A stretch of DNA of 20,660 nt from a virus. The number at the start of each line of letters is the position of its first letter. The first letter of the stretch is position 1. The stretch is taken from the IMG/VR virus record IMGVR_UViG_3300025914_000472, positions 1-20,660 of that record; one strand, written 5' to 3'. The notes beneath the pieces were generated by a model. That model was not told the origin of the DNA. It saw only the letters and a list, made by a program, of their open reading frames with translations, and did not search any database. Made by a program: the position numbers and the translations under genes. Positions 4,654 through 18,991 of the stretch are shown here, in pieces.

Positions 4654-4964
4654 TCGCCGCCGGGATAGAGGGCGGATCGAAGGTCGCGATCGAACGCGAC
4701 TGGGGGCTGGCCGATGTCGATGCCCAGCATCGGACCTGGCGGCGAACCGGCCCTCCGCTCAATATTGCGGCGGTTGCGATCGCGCGAGCGCTGGGAGTCG
4801 ATCTGATCGCCAGTGACGACCGCAATTCGGTGGAGACACGGGAGATCTCTCCCGACCAGCCCACGTTGGCGCGGCTTTCCGCCGAGGTCGCGATGCCCGT
4901 CGCCGGCGGCGATACTGCGGCCGCATCGCAAGCGATACTCCAGAAACTGAAGGACATGTCATGA
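4575..4964 (+). CDS. Tail assembly chaperone, T-like extension in the -1 frame
   Basis: An open frame with no convincing start of its own, reached by a -1 slip from the gene at 4279. From the slip it adds about 128 residues and ends at TGA 4962-4964, overlapping the tape measure ATG at 4961. The peptide reads like real protein with high-GC third positions: an acidic-basic helix (LAELVHDLIAAGIEGG), then KVAIERDWGLADVDAQHRTW, then PPLNIAAVAIARALGV and an Ala-rich C-terminus. The other alternative frame here is Arg-rich and stops after about 250 bases. In phages with this gene order, the T domain of the GT fusion recruits the major tail protein to the tape measure. A sequencing error or simple mutation is possible but less likely given the position. 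Confidence 0.75.
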   Translation, partial: GGSDGSHGNGVGGSLEHGLAELVHDLIAAGIEGGSKVAIERDWGLADVDAQHRTWRRTGPPLNIAAVAIARALGVDLIASDDRNSVETREISPDQPTLARLSAEVAMPVAGGDTAAASQAILQKLKDMS

Positions 4965-7609
4965 GCGATATCGTCTCCATCCGGATCACGGCCGACACAT
5001 CCGGCGTGGAGGCGGGCTTGCAGGACGTTCGCGGCGATCTGGGCGAACTGAAGAGCTCGGTCCAGGGCGCCGCGGACAGCATGACCGAAGGCTTTGCCGG
5101 GATGCGCGGCGCGGTCGAGCGCAACGCTCAGTCGATCGACAGGTTGGCCGCCAGCATGCGTGGGTTGAAGCCGCAGGAGATCGTGAGCGGCTTGAACGAA
5201 ATGGCCATCTCGCTGAAGGAGAACAGCGCGGCGCTGCAGGAAATGGCGGCCAAGTCGGGCGAAGGCAAAAGCGGGTTCGGCAAGCTGGTCGAAGGGATCA
5301 ACGGTGCCAAGGAGATGGCGGGCAGCCTGATTGAGGTCGGCAAGCAGGCGGCCGAAGCGATCATCGCGATGGGCGAGTCGTCCGAGAAGATCACCGTCCT
5401 GTCCAAGCAGCTCGGCATGTCGACGCACCAGGTACAATTGCTGCAGGGCATGGCGAAGGCGACCGGAACCGACTTCACCAAATTGTCGCAGAGCACCGCG
5501 GCGCTGGACAAGAATTTCAAACAGAGTCCCGACTCGTTCAAGAAGCTGGGCATCGATATCAAGGCCGGGTCGGATCAGATGACGATCCTGACCACGGTTG
5601 CCGACAAGTTCGCCAAGACCGCCGATGGCCCGCAAAAAACCGCGATGGCAATCAAACTGATGGGCCAGAGCGGCGCTGAGGCGATCCCATTCCTGAACCA
5701 GGGCGGCGCGGCGATCTCTGCACTGGCGCAGAAGACCGAATCCTATGGTGCCGCCAACGACCGGGCGATCGAGCGCGGCACCAAACTTGGCGAGTCGGTC
5801 AACGAAGCCCAACTTGCCTGGACGGGCATGGGCAACGTGTTGACCGATGCGTTGGCGCCGGTGCTGACCGATATAGTCAACAGCTTCACTGGCTTGGTCA
5901 AAGCCTGTATCGACAGCTACACGTCGGGTGGCGCGGTGGCCAAGATCTTCGACGTAGTCATCCTCGTGGTCAAAGAGCTGGGCGTGGAGATCGACGGGGT
6001 AGCTGGGATCTTCAAAGCGCTGTGGGATGCGGTCGTCGATATCGTCGGGGCGCTGGTGAGCGACATCAGCGACGCGTTCGGAGTGAAGACGCCGAATGCG
6101 ACCCAAATGGCGGAAACCGCACTCAACCTGTTCAAGGACACCTGGCAAATCCTGAAGGACAGCGTGATCATCGTCATCGAGGTGATCAAGGCGGCGATCA
6201 TCCTGTTCATCGACCGGCTGACGATGATGGGCACGATCGCGCGCGACGTATTCACGCTGAATTGGGGCGCTATCGCAGGCGACTGGCAATCGGGACTCGA
6301 CCGCATCCAGAAGCATGCAATCGAGACGGCGGCGAAGATCAAGGCCGTCTATGCCGACCTGGCGAAGACGATGGCGGCAGCGGCTAACGGGCAAGCCGTG
6401 CCCGGTCCGGCTCCCACCCGCGGAATCGCGCATGTGCCCGGCGGCACGGATGAAAAAGGTGGCGACAATGGTCGAACCGGGGGCACGTCCGGCCAGGGCG
6501 GTGGCCGGGGTGTACGGCGGCCAGCCGGTGGCGGGAGCGCCGGAAAGGGCTCCCCGGTTTCCAACGCGAAGGTCAAGGCCGCCGAGCAAGGCGATAGGCA
6601 AATCGTCGTCTCGGCCAGCAAAACCTCCGCCGAATTGGCCAAGATCGACGATAAAACCATCCAGGACTTCGAAAAGGACCAGCAGGATCGTATCGACACG
6701 GCCCAGAAATCCGGCGAGTTCCTCGTCCAGATGGGTGTCAAGACTCAGGGCCAATTGCTCCAGGAAGAGATCAAGACCGAACAGGCTCGGAAGGCCGCCG
6801 AGGAGAAGTTCTTCGCCGACCAGCAGAAGCTGTACGCGAACGATTTGACGCAGTGGAAGGCGTTGCAGAAAAAGAAGGAAGATGCGGCCAAGGCGTCAGA
6901 TGCGAAGATCGTCGATCTCAAGCGCAAGGCGCTGCTCGAGAGTAGCCAAGTCGAGCGACAGGCGATCAACGCGACCGCCCAATTGTGGAGCCAGAACTTT
7001 TCCAAGCTTCTGACATTCCAGCAGTCGTTTGCGGCCACCCTCCAGAATCTCTACAAGGGCATGGTCGGCATCCTGTCCGACGCGCTTGCCCAGATCATCC
7101 AGAAATGGCTGGTGCAGCATCTGTCGGCGCTGTTGCTGAGCGGGGCGGCGAGCAAGGCGGCGGCGACCGGCGAGATTGCCAGCAATGCCGCCGTCGCAGG
7201 GTCAGGCGCCTATGCCGCAACGGCAGCCATCCCTATCGTCGGACCAGGCCTCGCGCCCGCGGCAGCGGCAACGGCATATTCCGGTGCTATGGCCTTCATT
7301 TCCACTCTGGCCATTCCCAGCGGGGCCGGCGGTATTTGGGACGTCGACGGCGGGCTGACCATGCTGCATGAGCGGGAAATGGTGCTCCCCGCCTGGGCCG
7401 CGCAGCCCTTACGATCGATGTTAGGGGGCGCCGCCGCCAATTCGAACGCGCCGGCCGCCGCGAACGATGGCTCCGGCAGCTACCATTACCACGATCATAG
7501 CGCGCGCGGCTTGAGCGAGAGCCAGATCATCGCCAACCGCAATGCCTTCGCCAAGGCGATGAAAATGGCGCACCGCGAGGGCAAGCTGGGCTTTTCGCTA
7601 CCGGACTGA
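4961..7609 (+). CDS. Tail tape measure protein
   Basis: 882 residues; it sets tail length and leaves the tail during DNA delivery. The start is ATG 4961, overlapping the stop of the T-like frame, with AAGGA at 4950-4954. The N-terminus (ITADTSGVEAGLQDVRGDL) is the usual tape measure opening. Helical sequence fills residues 20-320. Long hydrophobic helices lie at about 328-435, a Gly/Pro-rich linker at 477-534, a charged coiled coil at 560-664, and an Ala/Gly-rich hydrophobic stretch at 717-787. Near the C-terminus, LHEREMVLPAWAAQPLRSML and then YHYHDHS are typical of this family. No lysozyme or peptidase motif was seen. At the usual ratio of about 0.15 nm per residue the tail would be near 130 nm, an inference only. 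Confidence 0.9.
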   Translation: MSDIVSIRITADTSGVEAGLQDVRGDLGELKSSVQGAADSMTEGFAGMRGAVERNAQSIDRLAASMRGLKPQEIVSGLNEMAISLKENSAALQEMAAKSGEGKSGFGKLVEGINGAKEMAGSLIEVGKQAAEAIIAMGESSEKITVLSKQLGMSTHQVQLLQGMAKATGTDFTKLSQSTAALDKNFKQSPDSFKKLGIDIKAGSDQMTILTTVADKFAKTADGPQKTAMAIKLMGQSGAEAIPFLNQGGAAISALAQKTESYGAANDRAIERGTKLGESVNEAQLAWTGMGNVLTDALAPVLTDIVNSFTGLVKACIDSYTSGGAVAKIFDVVILVVKELGVEIDGVAGIFKALWDAVVDIVGALVSDISDAFGVKTPNATQMAETALNLFKDTWQILKDSVIIVIEVIKAAIILFIDRLTMMGTIARDVFTLNWGAIAGDWQSGLDRIQKHAIETAAKIKAVYADLAKTMAAAANGQAVPGPAPTRGIAHVPGGTDEKGGDNGRTGGTSGQGGGRGVRRPAGGGSAGKGSPVSNAKVKAAEQGDRQIVVSASKTSAELAKIDDKTIQDFEKDQQDRIDTAQKSGEFLVQMGVKTQGQLLQEEIKTEQARKAAEEKFFADQQKLYANDLTQWKALQKKKEDAAKASDAKIVDLKRKALLESSQVERQAINATAQLWSQNFSKLLTFQQSFAATLQNLYKGMVGILSDALAQIIQKWLVQHLSALLLSGAASKAAATGEIASNAAVAGSGAYAATAAIPIVGPGLAPAAAATAYSGAMAFISTLAIPSGAGGIWDVDGGLTMLHEREMVLPAWAAQPLRSMLGGAAANSNAPAAANDGSGSYHYHDHSARGLSESQIIANRNAFAKAMKMAHREGKLGFSLPD

Positions 7610-7647: not shown

Positions 7648-8346
7648 TCATAGCGTGAACCTGAGCGAGCTTCCGTATCCCAACGAACGGGAATATTGGC
7701 TGCTCGATCCGACGGACATGGTCACGCCGCAGATCTTCATATTGCCGGTGAGTAGCGAGTAGCGGTTGGCGTTACGACCGCGGTCGACATAGTCCGTGCT
7801 GGATTGCCTCTGTATCGCGTCATAGCGCCGGTAAAAGCCAATCCGATCGGATCCTACACAAGCTGCGCCCAGCACAGCCGTGGCTAGATCGAAAACGCGG
7901 GTTGCATCCCAGTCGCTCTCCGTATGGGCAAATAGCGGACTCTGGTTGAGCGAGAAATAGATGGTGTCGACGTGTTCGCCATCACTGAGATCGATTTGGG
8001 TGTAGACGTCGTCATCATCGACAAGATCGCGATTCGTGGCATTGAATCTAACCCGAAAGCTCATCGTGGCCGAAACGGTGCGGCCATAGATATCGTGACC
8101 GGCCGGTCCCGGCAGCGCGAAAACGCCGCCTATCGCTGTCGTAGGCGTAACGCGAAGACTGAGGCTGGCAAGGCACGTAACGGCATCGGCGCCGAGACAC
8201 TTCCGGTCTTGCGGGTCGGCACGCAATTGCGCGATCCGCGCCTGGATCACGGCGATCGGGTCGGTCTTCTTGTTCTCTTTGCGGGCCAGCGCGGGTGAAG
8301 CCGTCCCGACCGCCACCATTGCGAACAACGCCAACACGTACCGCAT
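7648..8346 (-). CDS. Secreted protein of unknown function, moron-like
   Basis: 232 residues on the strand opposite the tail operon. The start is ATG at 8346, with a purine-rich ribosome site (GGGGGGAG on the minus strand) a few bases upstream. Residues 1-21 form a signal peptide: Arg2, a hydrophobic core, then ALA before a predicted cut at Ala21. The mature part has four Cys (50, 58, 163, 206), enough for two disulfides, and is polar and Ser/Tyr-rich at the C-terminus, suggesting a periplasmic or exported beta protein. I recognise no family. A 60-base line counted within it (7981-8040) has 30 G/C, against 43 of 60 at 12301-12360 in the hub gene, which suggests a separate origin. It sits between the tape measure and DUF2460 genes, which are normally adjacent, so it looks like an inserted lysogen-expressed gene. 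Confidence 0.75.
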   Translation of the reverse strand: MRYVLALFAMVAVGTASPALARKENKKTDPIAVIQARIAQLRADPQDRKCLGADAVTCLASLSLRVTPTTAIGGVFALPGPAGHDIYGRTVSATMSFRVRFNATNRDLVDDDDVYTQIDLSDGEHVDTIYFSLNQSPLFAHTESDWDATRVFDLATAVLGAACVGSDRIGFYRRYDAIQRQSSTDYVDRGRNANRYSLLTGNMKICGVTMSVGSSSQYSRSLGYGSSLRFTL

Positions 8347-8368
8347 CCCGTCTCCCCCCGACCGTCGT

Positions 8369-8389
8369 CACGTTCGGATTTCGAACGTG
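8369..8389. promoter_or_regulatory. Perfect inverted repeat, possible operator
   Basis: CACGTTCG (8369-8376), 5 bases, CGAACGTG (8382-8389): a perfect 8-bp dyad that begins 23 bases upstream of the minus-strand start codon at 8346. Its size and position suit a dimeric regulator site controlling the secreted-protein gene. The function is inferred from symmetry and location only. Confidence 0.45.
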
Positions 8390-8579
8390 GCGGACATGCC
8401 ATTGAACCGATGCCCGAACGGCAGACCGCAGAGCTAACAGGACGCCATAATCCCGCAAGACGGGCGACCGGCGGATAGCTCCAATTCGGATGCGATCGTC
8501 TGGCGCTTGTCCGAAGCCACACCGGGTCGAGCCAGCGCGCGTGATCGCTCGCGCACTGCCGCCGCGGCACCACCTTTCC

Positions 8580-8595
8580 GATCGCTTCGGCGATC
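8580..8595 (+). promoter_or_regulatory. UUCG-capped hairpin upstream of the DUF2460 gene
   Basis: GATCGC, TTCG, GCGATC: a perfect 6-bp stem with a stable tetraloop, 28 bases before the TTG start at 8623. No U-run follows, so it is not a classical terminator. It could be an mRNA 5'-stabilising or leader structure. Confidence 0.35.
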
Positions 8596-8622
8596 CGAGC
8601 AGCCATCCGATTGGAGACGAGT

Positions 8623-9279
8623 TTGCCCACGCTCTATCTACCGACACGCTGGCTCGTCACCGCCGATCCGTCGATCGACGACCCCGACGTGTTCCCGGCG
8701 TTGATCGGACAGTCGTTCCTGGTCGCCAAGACCCCGACATGGGCGACGAAGATCGCGACGGCGTCGTCCGGCCGCGAGCGTCGGCGCAAGACCTGGTCGT
8801 ATCCGCGGTGGCAATTCAAGGTGTCGTACGAGGTGTTGCGCGACCTCCCCGCCACGCCCGACCTCGAACGCCTGGCCGCGTTCTTCCTGCTGCACGGCGG
8901 TCAATATCAGGAATTCTTCTTCTTCGACCCCGGCGACAACAATGTCGCCGGACAGAAGTTCGGTGTCGGCGACGGAATCACGACCTCGTTCCAGCTTAGC
9001 CGGAGCATGACGTTCGGCAGCGCAGCCTTCACCGAGCCCGTCGGCAGCGTGCTCGGAACGCCGACCGTGTTCGCCGATGCCACCCCCGTCGCGAGCTTCA
9101 CGGTTGGCTCGCGTGGGTCGATCACTTTCACAAGTCCGCCCGCCGCCGGCAAGGTGCTGACCTGGAGCGGGCGTTTCATGTTCGTCTGCCGCTTCGACGA
9201 CGACGCGCTCGAACTCAACCAGATGATGCAGAGCCTGTGGTCGCAGGACGGCCTCTCCTTCACCACGACCAAGGGCTGA
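8623..9279 (+). CDS. DUF2460 family tail protein (TIGR02217-like)
   Basis: 218 residues, starting at TTG 8623, chosen because GGAG (8613-8616) is 6 bases upstream; the frame opens earlier at TTG 8611 but that would remove the ribosome site. The protein resembles the DUF2460 family (gene transfer agent gp12-like), a distal tail protein ring at the tube end: RKTWSYPRWQFKVSYEVL, then AAFFLLHGGQYQEFFFFDPGD (read in parts), GDGITTSFQLSR, and beta-rich PPAAGKVLTWSGRF. The family is about 210 residues, so this is complete. The DUF2163 gene follows 2 bases after its stop. The rare TTG start could lower its translation. Confidence 0.85.
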   Translation: MPTLYLPTRWLVTADPSIDDPDVFPALIGQSFLVAKTPTWATKIATASSGRERRRKTWSYPRWQFKVSYEVLRDLPATPDLERLAAFFLLHGGQYQEFFFFDPGDNNVAGQKFGVGDGITTSFQLSRSMTFGSAAFTEPVGSVLGTPTVFADATPVASFTVGSRGSITFTSPPAAGKVLTWSGRFMFVCRFDDDALELNQMMQSLWSQDGLSFTTTKG

Positions 9280-16679: not shown

Positions 16680-17504
16680 TCAGGCATACCCATCCGGTAT
16701 AACTAGATAGTCGCCGACGGGAAGGTATTCCTCGGAATGCTGGGCTAACACGGTGCGATTGAGCAGCACGCCCTTGTTGCTGACGAAGCGCATCATTCGG
16801 AAGGGTAGCGGGATGATCTCGGCGAGCGCAGACGTAGCCTGCTTGGGCAGCGTCGTTTCGCTGATTTCCACCCAGATTAACGGGCGGGAGACTTTGATCG
16901 TCTCATGCAAGCCGCGGAGAACGTGCGGCTCGAATCCTTGCACGTCGATCTTCAACGCGTCGATCGTCACGCCAGCTAATTGCTCGTCGCCGACGGCGAT
17001 GTGAGTAGCGAGGCCCTTAGCGTTGTCGAGCTCGCCGGTAAGGAACGTGGAGAGGCCGTGATTGTCGTTGACGAAGATCGGCAGGTCCGCCTCCTCTTCG
17101 CCGAGACCCACCTTGCGCAGTTCTATGTTTGCCCAAGGGTTGATTGCGATATTGCGCTCGATCGCCGGCCAGATTTGAGGGTTAGGCTCAAACGAGATGA
17201 CGCGATCGAAGTGGCGGGCGAAGGCGAGTGCATGATTGCCGATATTCGCGCCGACATCGACTATCGTACCCCTCCGCTTCGCCTGTGCCAGAAAAGGTCC
17301 GATCTTATGCCAATCATAGGCGCCATAGAGGTACGCCTCGCGATCAATCCCGGAGCGTAGATTGCCGGCGAAATTTCCGTGCCGGCCCCGAGATTCGAAT
17401 TCGACATCATGCTTCGCGAGCTTGGTGGCGATCGTTGGCCACCCACGAACACGGCGCATGAAGCTGAGCGATCGTGCGACCTTTGCGGTGAATGGAACTG
17501 TCAT
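16680..17504 (-). CDS. FkbM-family SAM-dependent methyltransferase
   Basis: 274 residues from ATG 17504; the frame is open upstream to a TTG at 17582, but that would overlap the neighbouring gene, so the ATG is preferred. The methyltransferase core is clear: VDVGANIGNHALAFA (about 82-96) for SAM binding, ISFEPN with acidic Glu106, and KIDVQGFEPHVLRG (185-198), the FkbM hallmark. FkbM enzymes O-methylate sugars or natural products, and several act on surface polysaccharide. It is the second gene of a minus-strand pair, 49 bases after the acyltransferase. A 60-base line counted in it (17101-17160) has 33 G/C, lower than the tail genes. Likely role: lysogenic modification of the host surface glycan; the substrate is unknown. 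Confidence 0.88.
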   Translation of the reverse strand: MTVPFTAKVARSLSFMRRVRGWPTIATKLAKHDVEFESRGRHGNFAGNLRSGIDREAYLYGAYDWHKIGPFLAQAKRRGTIVDVGANIGNHALAFARHFDRVISFEPNPQIWPAIERNIAINPWANIELRKVGLGEEEADLPIFVNDNHGLSTFLTGELDNAKGLATHIAVGDEQLAGVTIDALKIDVQGFEPHVLRGLHETIKVSRPLIWVEISETTLPKQATSALAEIIPLPFRMMRFVSNKGVLLNRTVLAQHSEEYLPVGDYLVIPDGYA

Positions 17505-17553
17505 TATTGGCTGCCTATCAAATCGGAATGCGCGAGGCCAACCGGATTCGCAT

Positions 17554-18636
17554 TTACAGCGGCTGCTCAGCGACCTCTTCAATTGCCGACGGCTTCATTT
17601 TGCCACGAGACCTTATCCACTCGCGAGCGGGCTCCTCGAAACAGAGGAACATGATGACCGAGGCCAATACCACGCCAACATATTGAAGCGGAACCAGCCA
17701 CTTATCGGCTCCCAGCAACCAAACCAGGTAGAAGTGGACCGGCTGATGCAGGAGGTAGAGCGAGTAGCTCGCGGCGCCGAGCAAAACGATCGCGCGGTGC
17801 TGCAGCAGCCGGCTTATAAGCGACCCTCGGGCATCCGCTAGCGCAGCGATCAAGAGCGCGGCGAGGGCTGTGACCGCTGAGGCAACCCAAGGCGAGTGGG
17901 ACACGATTAGGACGCCGAGCAGACCTATCGTCGGAACCCAGACCGGTATTGGGAAGGGTCGCCCCTCACGCCTGAAATGCAACTCCCCCACGAGCACCCC
18001 AATCATGAATTCAGGCAGACGGATCAGCGGCGTCGGTACCCACCGGAGCCAATCGAAATACGCAGGATGCAGCGAGAAGAATGCTGAGCTGCCAGTGACA
18101 AAATCGAAAACGATCAAGACCGACAATACGCCCAAAATCACACGGCTGGGCAGGTGCTCAGCGCCTTTGGAAAGGCAGGGAAAACAGACGTAGAAGAACG
18201 CTTCGACGGAGATCGTCCAAGACGGCCCGTTCCAAAGACCAAAGATGGGCCAGGGTGCCGTAATCCACCAGTGCAGCAGAAAGAACTGCGGCACGTCCCG
18301 CCAGTCGTAACGCACGCCCACAAACGGGATCATCACCAAGAGAGTGGCGAAGTAAACCGGATAGATGCGCGCGAATCTTGCAACGGCGAACCTCTTGATC
18401 CAGCCGCGGCCGACCAGCTTCCCGCGGTAGGTGCGGTGCAGGATGAAACCGGACAGCACAAAGAAGAAGGTCACGCCGGTATAGCCGTTCAGCAATAGAG
18501 ATTTGATTATCCCGGGAACGCCGGCCTGGGCTGACATGAACGTCGAGCCGGAGTGATAAAATACTACGAACATAGCGGCGAAGAATCGGATGCTGGTCAG
18601 CGGCCTGATCAGGTCTGGGGTGCGCGACGTCGTCAT
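17554..18636 (-). CDS. Acyltransferase-3 family membrane protein (O-acetyltransferase-like)
   Basis: 360 residues from ATG 18636, the size of a complete acyltransferase-3 domain; the frame extends upstream to 18909 but overlaps the divergent lysis gene, so the internal ATG is chosen. Arg17 and His28 form the R-x10-H pair typical of the family (SIRFFAAMFVVFYH), followed by TGVTFFFVLSGFILHRTY and GPSWTISVEAFFYVCFP. About ten hydrophobic segments are visible, so it sits in the inner membrane. Family members such as Shigella phage Oac and OafA O-acetylate O-antigen sugars and change serotype. A 60-base line counted in it (18061-18120) has 30 G/C. It is first in the minus-strand pair with the FkbM gene. 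Acyl donor and target are inferred. Confidence 0.9.
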   Translation of the reverse strand: MTTSRTPDLIRPLTSIRFFAAMFVVFYHSGSTFMSAQAGVPGIIKSLLLNGYTGVTFFFVLSGFILHRTYRGKLVGRGWIKRFAVARFARIYPVYFATLLVMIPFVGVRYDWRDVPQFFLLHWWITAPWPIFGLWNGPSWTISVEAFFYVCFPCLSKGAEHLPSRVILGVLSVLIVFDFVTGSSAFFSLHPAYFDWLRWVPTPLIRLPEFMIGVLVGELHFRREGRPFPIPVWVPTIGLLGVLIVSHSPWVASAVTALAALLIAALADARGSLISRLLQHRAIVLLGAASYSLYLLHQPVHFYLVWLLGADKWLVPLQYVGVVLASVIMFLCFEEPAREWIRSRGKMKPSAIEEVAEQPL

Positions 18637-18721
18637 GATGGAGCCGTAACCGCTCCGGCGACGCCATGAAAGCCCAGGATCAAAGCGATGGACTCCTCTC
18701 TCAAAGGAAAGACCCTCCCCA
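18637..18721. other. Divergent intergenic region between the surface cassette and lysis genes
   Basis: 85 bases between the minus-strand acyltransferase start and the plus-strand lysis start. It should contain the minus-strand promoter and possibly a plus-strand one; no clear consensus was seen. A GGAGC/GCTCC dyad occurs near 18640-18656. A 19-codon frame, ATG 18666 to TGA 18725, overlaps the next start as ATGA and may be a leader or a gene remnant. Confidence 0.5.
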
Positions 18722-18991
18722 ATGACCATGCCCGCCAAGCCCCCGCCGACCTGGTTGGCGTGGCTTCCCGTCGTCACGACGATCTTCCTGATCGCAGGCT
18801 TTCTATGGGCGGGCGGCGGCAAGATGAACGAACTGGCTGAACACGAACGCCGCCTCACCGCGCTGGAAACCCGGCGCGAGTCCGATGCCGACAAGCTCGA
18901 CAAGATCAATGAGCGGACCGCGCGGATCGAGGCGAAGCTCGAGGTGCTCGTCCCCTCATCCGGCCGAACCAGGATAGGACAACCCCAATGA
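18722..18991 (+). CDS. Small membrane protein with coiled coil, lysis cassette
   Basis: 89 residues, ATG 18722 with AAGGAAAG (18704-18711) upstream; a second in-frame ATG is at 18728. There is one hydrophobic segment at about residues 11-30 (WLAWLPVVTTIFLIAGFLW), then a charged coiled coil at 36-78 (LAEHERRLTALETRR, then INERTARIEAKLEVLV). Many phages carry a protein like this next to the holin. It has some likeness to the XhlA-type haemolysin/holin accessory proteins, though there the membrane segment follows the coiled coil. The next gene starts within its stop. I infer a lysis accessory or membrane-anchor role, not a proven holin. Confidence 0.65.
   Translation: MTMPAKPPPTWLAWLPVVTTIFLIAGFLWAGGGKMNELAEHERRLTALETRRESDADKLDKINERTARIEAKLEVLVPSSGRTRIGQPQ

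Follow-up and report, generated by a model that had tools for sequence, protein, structure and literature searches.

Why does a prophage carry a gene for a secreted protein in reverse orientation inside its tail operon? Our study addresses this question in a 20,660-base virus record (IMG/VR IMGVR_UViG_3300025914_000472, analysed over its whole length and called the window below), which contains a siphophage head-tail operon with a connector (PF05135), a tape measure protein (TMP), a DUF2460 tail protein, a phiJL001 Gp84-like and BR0599 hub, a Phage-tail_3/Rcc01698 protein and a GH108 endolysin. The gene in question, X, lies between the TMP and DUF2460 genes, convergent with the former and divergent from the latter (Table 1). 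An initial annotation had proposed that it is a moron for a secreted protein of no recognised family, and had speculated on an effect on the host envelope or on phage exclusion.

Table 1. Positions of gene X and associated features in the window.
Feature	Position	Strand	Evidence
Gene X, moron; predicted secreted protein of 232 aa with four invariant Cys	7648..8346	-	ORF, alignment, dN/dS
Predicted signal peptide of X, residues 1-21, cleavage between ALA and RK	8284..8346	-	Sequence reading, hydropathy peak at residues 3-21
5' region of X, common to the divergent DUF2460 gene	8347..8610	-	RBS-like GGGGGGAGACGGG, conserved upstream block
TMP, 882 aa, convergent with X	4961..7609	+	PHROGs tail length tape measure protein, E 3.5e-25
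TMP residues 321-660, central region whose divergence tracks X	5921..6940	+	Distance correlations, hydropathy
DUF2460 tail protein, right-hand neighbour, divergent from X	8611..9279	+	Pfam PF09343, E 2.7e-42
FkbM-type methyltransferase and acyltransferase family 3 genes, the second antisense cargo	16680..18909	-	PF05050, E 7.7e-13; PF01757, E 6e-31

Results

Gene X encodes a conserved protein

The limits of the X reading frame are exact, with an ATG at 8346 and a stop at 7648 on the minus strand. In a GC-rich window long antisense ORFs arise commonly by chance, and one of 765 aa overlies the TMP region, so the length of the X frame is no evidence of coding. A chance ORF is excluded by dN/dS and by the indels among X relatives, which keep the frame and include none that breaks it. 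Pairwise comparison of seven type-I sequences gives dN/dS values of 0.21-0.45 in 20 of 21 pairs, with a mean of 0.36 and a value of 0.86 for a near-identical pair; for three tail genes of the same loci the values are 0.07-0.12. X is under purifying selection, yet it is evolving faster than the tail genes tested.

The N-terminus, MRYVLALFAMVAVGTASPALA followed by RK, reads by eye and in a hydropathy scan as a typical Sec/SPase I signal with an AxA site. Cysteines at positions 50, 58, 163 and 206 are invariant across all 14 aligned relatives, in agreement with the secreted four-cysteine protein first described, and as no cysteine precedes residue 50 the protein lacks a lipobox. The product would be exported to the periplasm, where it is probably folded with disulfides. 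The difference in base composition from the structural genes was also borne out; it is real but modest, as the structural genes have a GC content of 60.8-68.3% and a GC3 of 0.72-0.86, and X has 58.8% and 0.69. Ahead of the start codon lies an RBS-like purine run (GGGGGGAGACGGG), and a conserved block is found approximately 90-155 nt upstream; a simple sigma-70/terminator scan returned nothing beyond chance, with neither a consensus promoter nor a terminator-like site on the X strand.

The TMP/DUF2460 junction is a cargo slot

Searching with the neighbouring DUF2460 protein identified 27 IMG/VR contigs (84-100% identity) and two Sphingomonas genomes, which together with two partial contigs and the window make up a set of 32 close loci; S. 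asaccharolytica is counted twice in this set, as L051 and probably as L023. In the comparison of related prophages that the initial annotation had suggested, the TMP/DUF2460 junction is occupied in 32/32 close loci, and the cargo is antisense every time. X fills the slot in 23 of these loci (42-99% identity) and a second family, Y, in the remaining nine (L013, L015, L016, L017, L019-L022 and L050). The Y proteins are about 210 aa long with a signal that ends in AANAQ or a similar motif. Both families have signal-like N-termini; no sequence similarity between them is detectable, and the idea that they are sequence homologues was dropped. In the distant relatives L039, L041 and L042-L045 the slot is empty, and the stop codon of the TMP gene overlaps the start of DUF2460 or lies directly against it, as expected of the normal neighbours that the two genes had been taken to be. 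X is thus not a constant, co-directional member of the operon: no close relative has an empty slot, but the occupant comes from one family or the other and in each case runs against the tail genes.

Intermediate relatives carry other genes at the junction: an antisense gene for a secreted 133-aa protein in L097, an antisense P22_AR_N antirepressor-like gene in L098, several sense genes in L038, and Y with small secreted proteins in L133 and L134. The L097 protein belongs to no Pfam family and a search for its relatives was empty. The small secreted proteins at L097:7833-8234, L133:3640-4116 and L038:3577-4248 have a similar stretch (FEWPY, FEWPN and IRWPY), and their orientations in the slot differ. 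About five relatives (L012, L014, L023, L025 and L034) have a minus-strand gene upstream of X for a conserved protein of 55 aa with the form CPQC-hydrophobic helix-CRQCNF (Pfam BRI3, E 5e-7), which is not found in the window.

The TMP/DUF2460 junction is a cargo slot. The occupied and empty versions of the junction, the alternation of unrelated genes within it, the gene's own 5' region and its lower GC together provide good support for the original proposal of a moron, with X as a self-contained gene inserted in reverse orientation at this junction of a Sphingomonas prophage.

The window contains a second antisense cargo, the methyltransferase and acyltransferase genes listed in Table 1, with a GC content of 57.6-59.1%, low like that of X. 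This cassette probably functions in surface-polysaccharide modification. Homologues occur in the same place in L050, which has both genes (60-85%), and in L051, which has the acyltransferase only (51-61%).

The host is Sphingomonas

The element lies within a 1.26-Mb contig of a Sphingomonas MAG (G023), and S. asaccharolytica (G024) carries it at the same position, flanked by azoR/HxlR-type genes on one side and a citrate-synthase-like neighbourhood on the other (the flanking genes were named from reading their protein sequences, not from a family search). Two further genomes hold deleted copies, G098 retaining just the two ends of the element and G126 less, neither with the slot, and the window ends in 560 bases that match the G023/G024 flank at 79-88%. 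Either X or Y is present in 2/295 genomes of the genus; a weak X match in G312 (E 2e-6, with stops) was not convincing. From the shared site, the deleted copies, the flank match of the window and the count in the genus, we conclude that the element is an integrated, site-fixed prophage that is rare in Sphingomonas. Apart from a sub-threshold match in one distant record, no integrase was found in the searched records, which are fragments.

Beside the prophage in G023 lies a helicase-containing block (G023:C7:617018-641671), possibly a defence island, that ends in a serine recombinase near tRNA-Ala and is missing from the corresponding place in G024. A GTA-like DUF2460 gene is common in the genus, with no close match in G023, G024, G098 or G126.

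Divergence of X follows the central region of the TMP

The divergence of X was compared with that of the tail genes over 12 distinct X loci, which represent about four X types. In windows over TMP residues 281-660 the distances of X and the TMP are correlated, with r values of 0.70-0.83, and with a drop to 0.53 at residues 641-700, against 0.23-0.30 for residues 681-860, the end that lies beside the X gene, and 0.28-0.40 for other tail genes. For the central stretch with the predicted hydrophobic segments r is 0.75-0.83. The partial correlation of X with TMP residues 321-535, given DUF2460, p262 and gp84, is 0.81, and the X-TMP correlation is stable when any single locus is omitted. When each X type is represented by one locus the contrast between TMP regions is weaker and was once reversed, and the permutation P values for the covariation are inflated by the relatedness of the loci. 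Hydrophobic segments predicted at residues 324-342, 347-365 and 402-420 lie in the first part of the correlated region. Simple linkage would be expected to produce the opposite gradient, and the poor correlation of the TMP end nearest to X argues against it.

An alignment of 24 loci highlights the mosaic nature of the TMP genes. In L013 an X14-like N-terminal half with the hydrophobic region is joined to a Y-type C-terminal third, and the slot holds Y; in L132 Y is paired with an X-type TMP end. These exchanges mean that slot family and TMP do not correspond one-to-one. In the 24 complete loci the slot family predicted the type of TMP C-terminus without exception, as linkage would have it, and L132 broke this rule; among the X loci it is the central TMP that carries the correlation, rather than the C-terminus. 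In the deleted prophage L132 a single ORF fuses terminase-small-like sequence and TMP C-terminal sequence, while Y survives intact, as does an acyltransferase gene.

Searches for related proteins and folds

X gave nothing significant in Pfam, PHROGs, NCBIfam, PADLOC, PDB sequences, INPHARED phages or PLSDB plasmids, in keeping with the earlier statement that the protein matches no recognised family. Protein and profile scans of IMG/VR recovered 21 X loci with the broadest query, all of them in this slot, and a scan of GTDB contigs that used the type-I alignment and confirmation by tblastn recovered none; a later search of the genus identified the X homologue in S. asaccharolytica NBRC 15499, at L051:6448-7170. 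A match of X relatives to the LapG cysteine protease (E 0.03-0.14) was not significant.

The AlphaFold2 model of X, from 14 sequences, has a pLDDT of 73 and a pTM of 0.71, and its predicted C-terminal domain consists of three strands, helices and four strands. The model of Y, from eight sequences, is poor (pLDDT 54), with an order of elements that resembles X. Foldseek searches of the PDB gave best E values of 0.05 for X and 0.015 for Y with TM-scores of 0.1-0.4, none of them significant. Weak matches common to both models are EagT6, SciW, DcrB and MTC28, and none of the matches to the DcrB/Eag proteins (DUF1795, with a Mog1/PsbP-like fold) falls below E 0.001. Eag proteins bind transmembrane domains of effectors (PMC7773334). 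The remote-homology and structure searches thus leave this resemblance of the two models as only a lead.

Discussion

Known exclusion proteins and morons provide the closest precedents for X. The TMP is the target of the TP-J34 exclusion protein Ltp (PMC3952083), it is implicated for HK97 gp15 (PMC10883804), and the nuclease SNIPE appears to act via siphophage TMPs (PMC13190303). Like the predicted X product, Ltp is an extracytoplasmic prophage protein, and it targets the TMP to block DNA injection; unlike X, which has no lipobox cysteine, it is a lipoprotein of a Gram-positive host and is encoded in the lysogeny module. Like X, HK97 gp15 is the product of a moron that immediately adjoins the TMP gene in the tail operon of a siphophage, and which incoming phages it excludes depends on their tail tube/TMP genes. 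It differs in being a predicted inner-membrane protein of 62 aa whose gene is co-directional and upstream of the TMP gene, and hhalign gives a probability of 0.2% for its homology with X. The HK97 'reverse moron' gp23 is antisense within the tail gene cluster, as X is, although it is small and at another position; it is likened to X by arrangement. Glo of Vibrio phage K139 is, like the predicted X product, a prophage-encoded periplasmic protein, and it is involved in phage exclusion; it has 137 aa, is encoded between int and lysogeny genes, and hhalign probabilities against X and Y are 0.2-0.3%.

We tentatively favour, as the most plausible single reading but one that may well be wrong, a role for X in superinfection exclusion or self-immunity, as a periplasmic factor that acts on the DNA entry mediated by the TMP. 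X would be made in the lysogen and would engage the membrane-crossing central region of an incoming TMP; particles of the same or a related type would then be blocked at the DNA-entry step and the lysogen protected. It is the combination of the site beside the TMP gene, export, turnover and covariation that favours such a role, and to this can be added the slot that is always antisense-filled in close relatives (X 23, Y 9) and empty in distant ones, and the surface-modification-type antisense cassette in the same prophage. The exclusion part of the initial speculation thus gains circumstantial support, through the X-TMP covariation. Against exclusion, the X sequence has no match to known exclusion proteins; the covariation comes from 12 loci and about four types, and the pairings in L013 and L132 fit imperfectly. 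In addition, distant Y relatives in another slot (L131) and in a non-tail context (L135) suggest a broader role.

The last point leads to the reading that ranks close behind, in which X is a lysogenic-conversion factor that confers a periplasmic benefit on the host envelope or on soil fitness, unrelated to exclusion. The predicted secretion of X, the presence of Y outside the slot and its survival in the deleted remnant L132, and the other surface-modifying genes of the prophage are all consistent with this. X itself is confined to this slot and to these prophages, however, and a general host factor would not explain why its divergence tracks one TMP region; on balance we regard conversion as possible but unlikely. 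Less probable again is that X is a nearly neutral hitchhiker, carried as cargo in a recombination hotspot, with the X-TMP correlation reflecting the shared ancestry of recombining blocks. The many unrelated slot genes of the wider relatives, including the antirepressor-like gene of L098, and the TMP mosaic would fit such an origin, whereas purifying selection on X and the poor correlation of the closest TMP segment, contrary to simple linkage, do not.

The fixed site of the element raises the question of whether X might confer self-immunity to killer or transducing particles of a resident PBSX- or GTA-like element, rather than exclusion of plaque-forming phages. The shared position in two Sphingomonas genomes and deleted copies in two others, the match of the window's end to that flank, the failure to find an integrase in the searched records and purifying selection on the tail genes are in line with this idea; set against it, the element is rare, with X or Y in 2/295 genomes, and the records are fragments, and we consider it improbable. 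More doubtful still is the narrower proposal that X and Y share a single DcrB/Eag-like fold and can replace each other as periplasmic immunity proteins, which would capture TMP transmembrane helices, the immunity gene beside its matching TMP gene giving kin-specific immunity at DNA entry. Finally, as X is convergent to the TMP gene and the 3' ends of the two overlap in several relatives, the locus could act on the tail genes through antisense RNA or transcriptional interference; protein conservation, cysteine invariance and a signal peptide would be needless for this purpose, and we find it highly improbable.

Reverse morons and exclusion genes in tail operons are already known from HK97 gp23 and gp15. 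Families X and Y are both new with respect to the searched libraries, and a slot that alternates unrelated secreted proteins makes a useful system, in which two unnamed families replace one another in one phage position and X diverges alongside the membrane-crossing part of the TMP. If X does not act in exclusion, it remains a clear, ordinary reverse moron of a tail operon. If its exclusion is tied to TMP type, the X/TMP pairs would form a natural series for the study of how the DNA of a long-tailed phage passes the Gram-negative inner membrane, and of the means by which a soluble protein of the periplasm could stop it.
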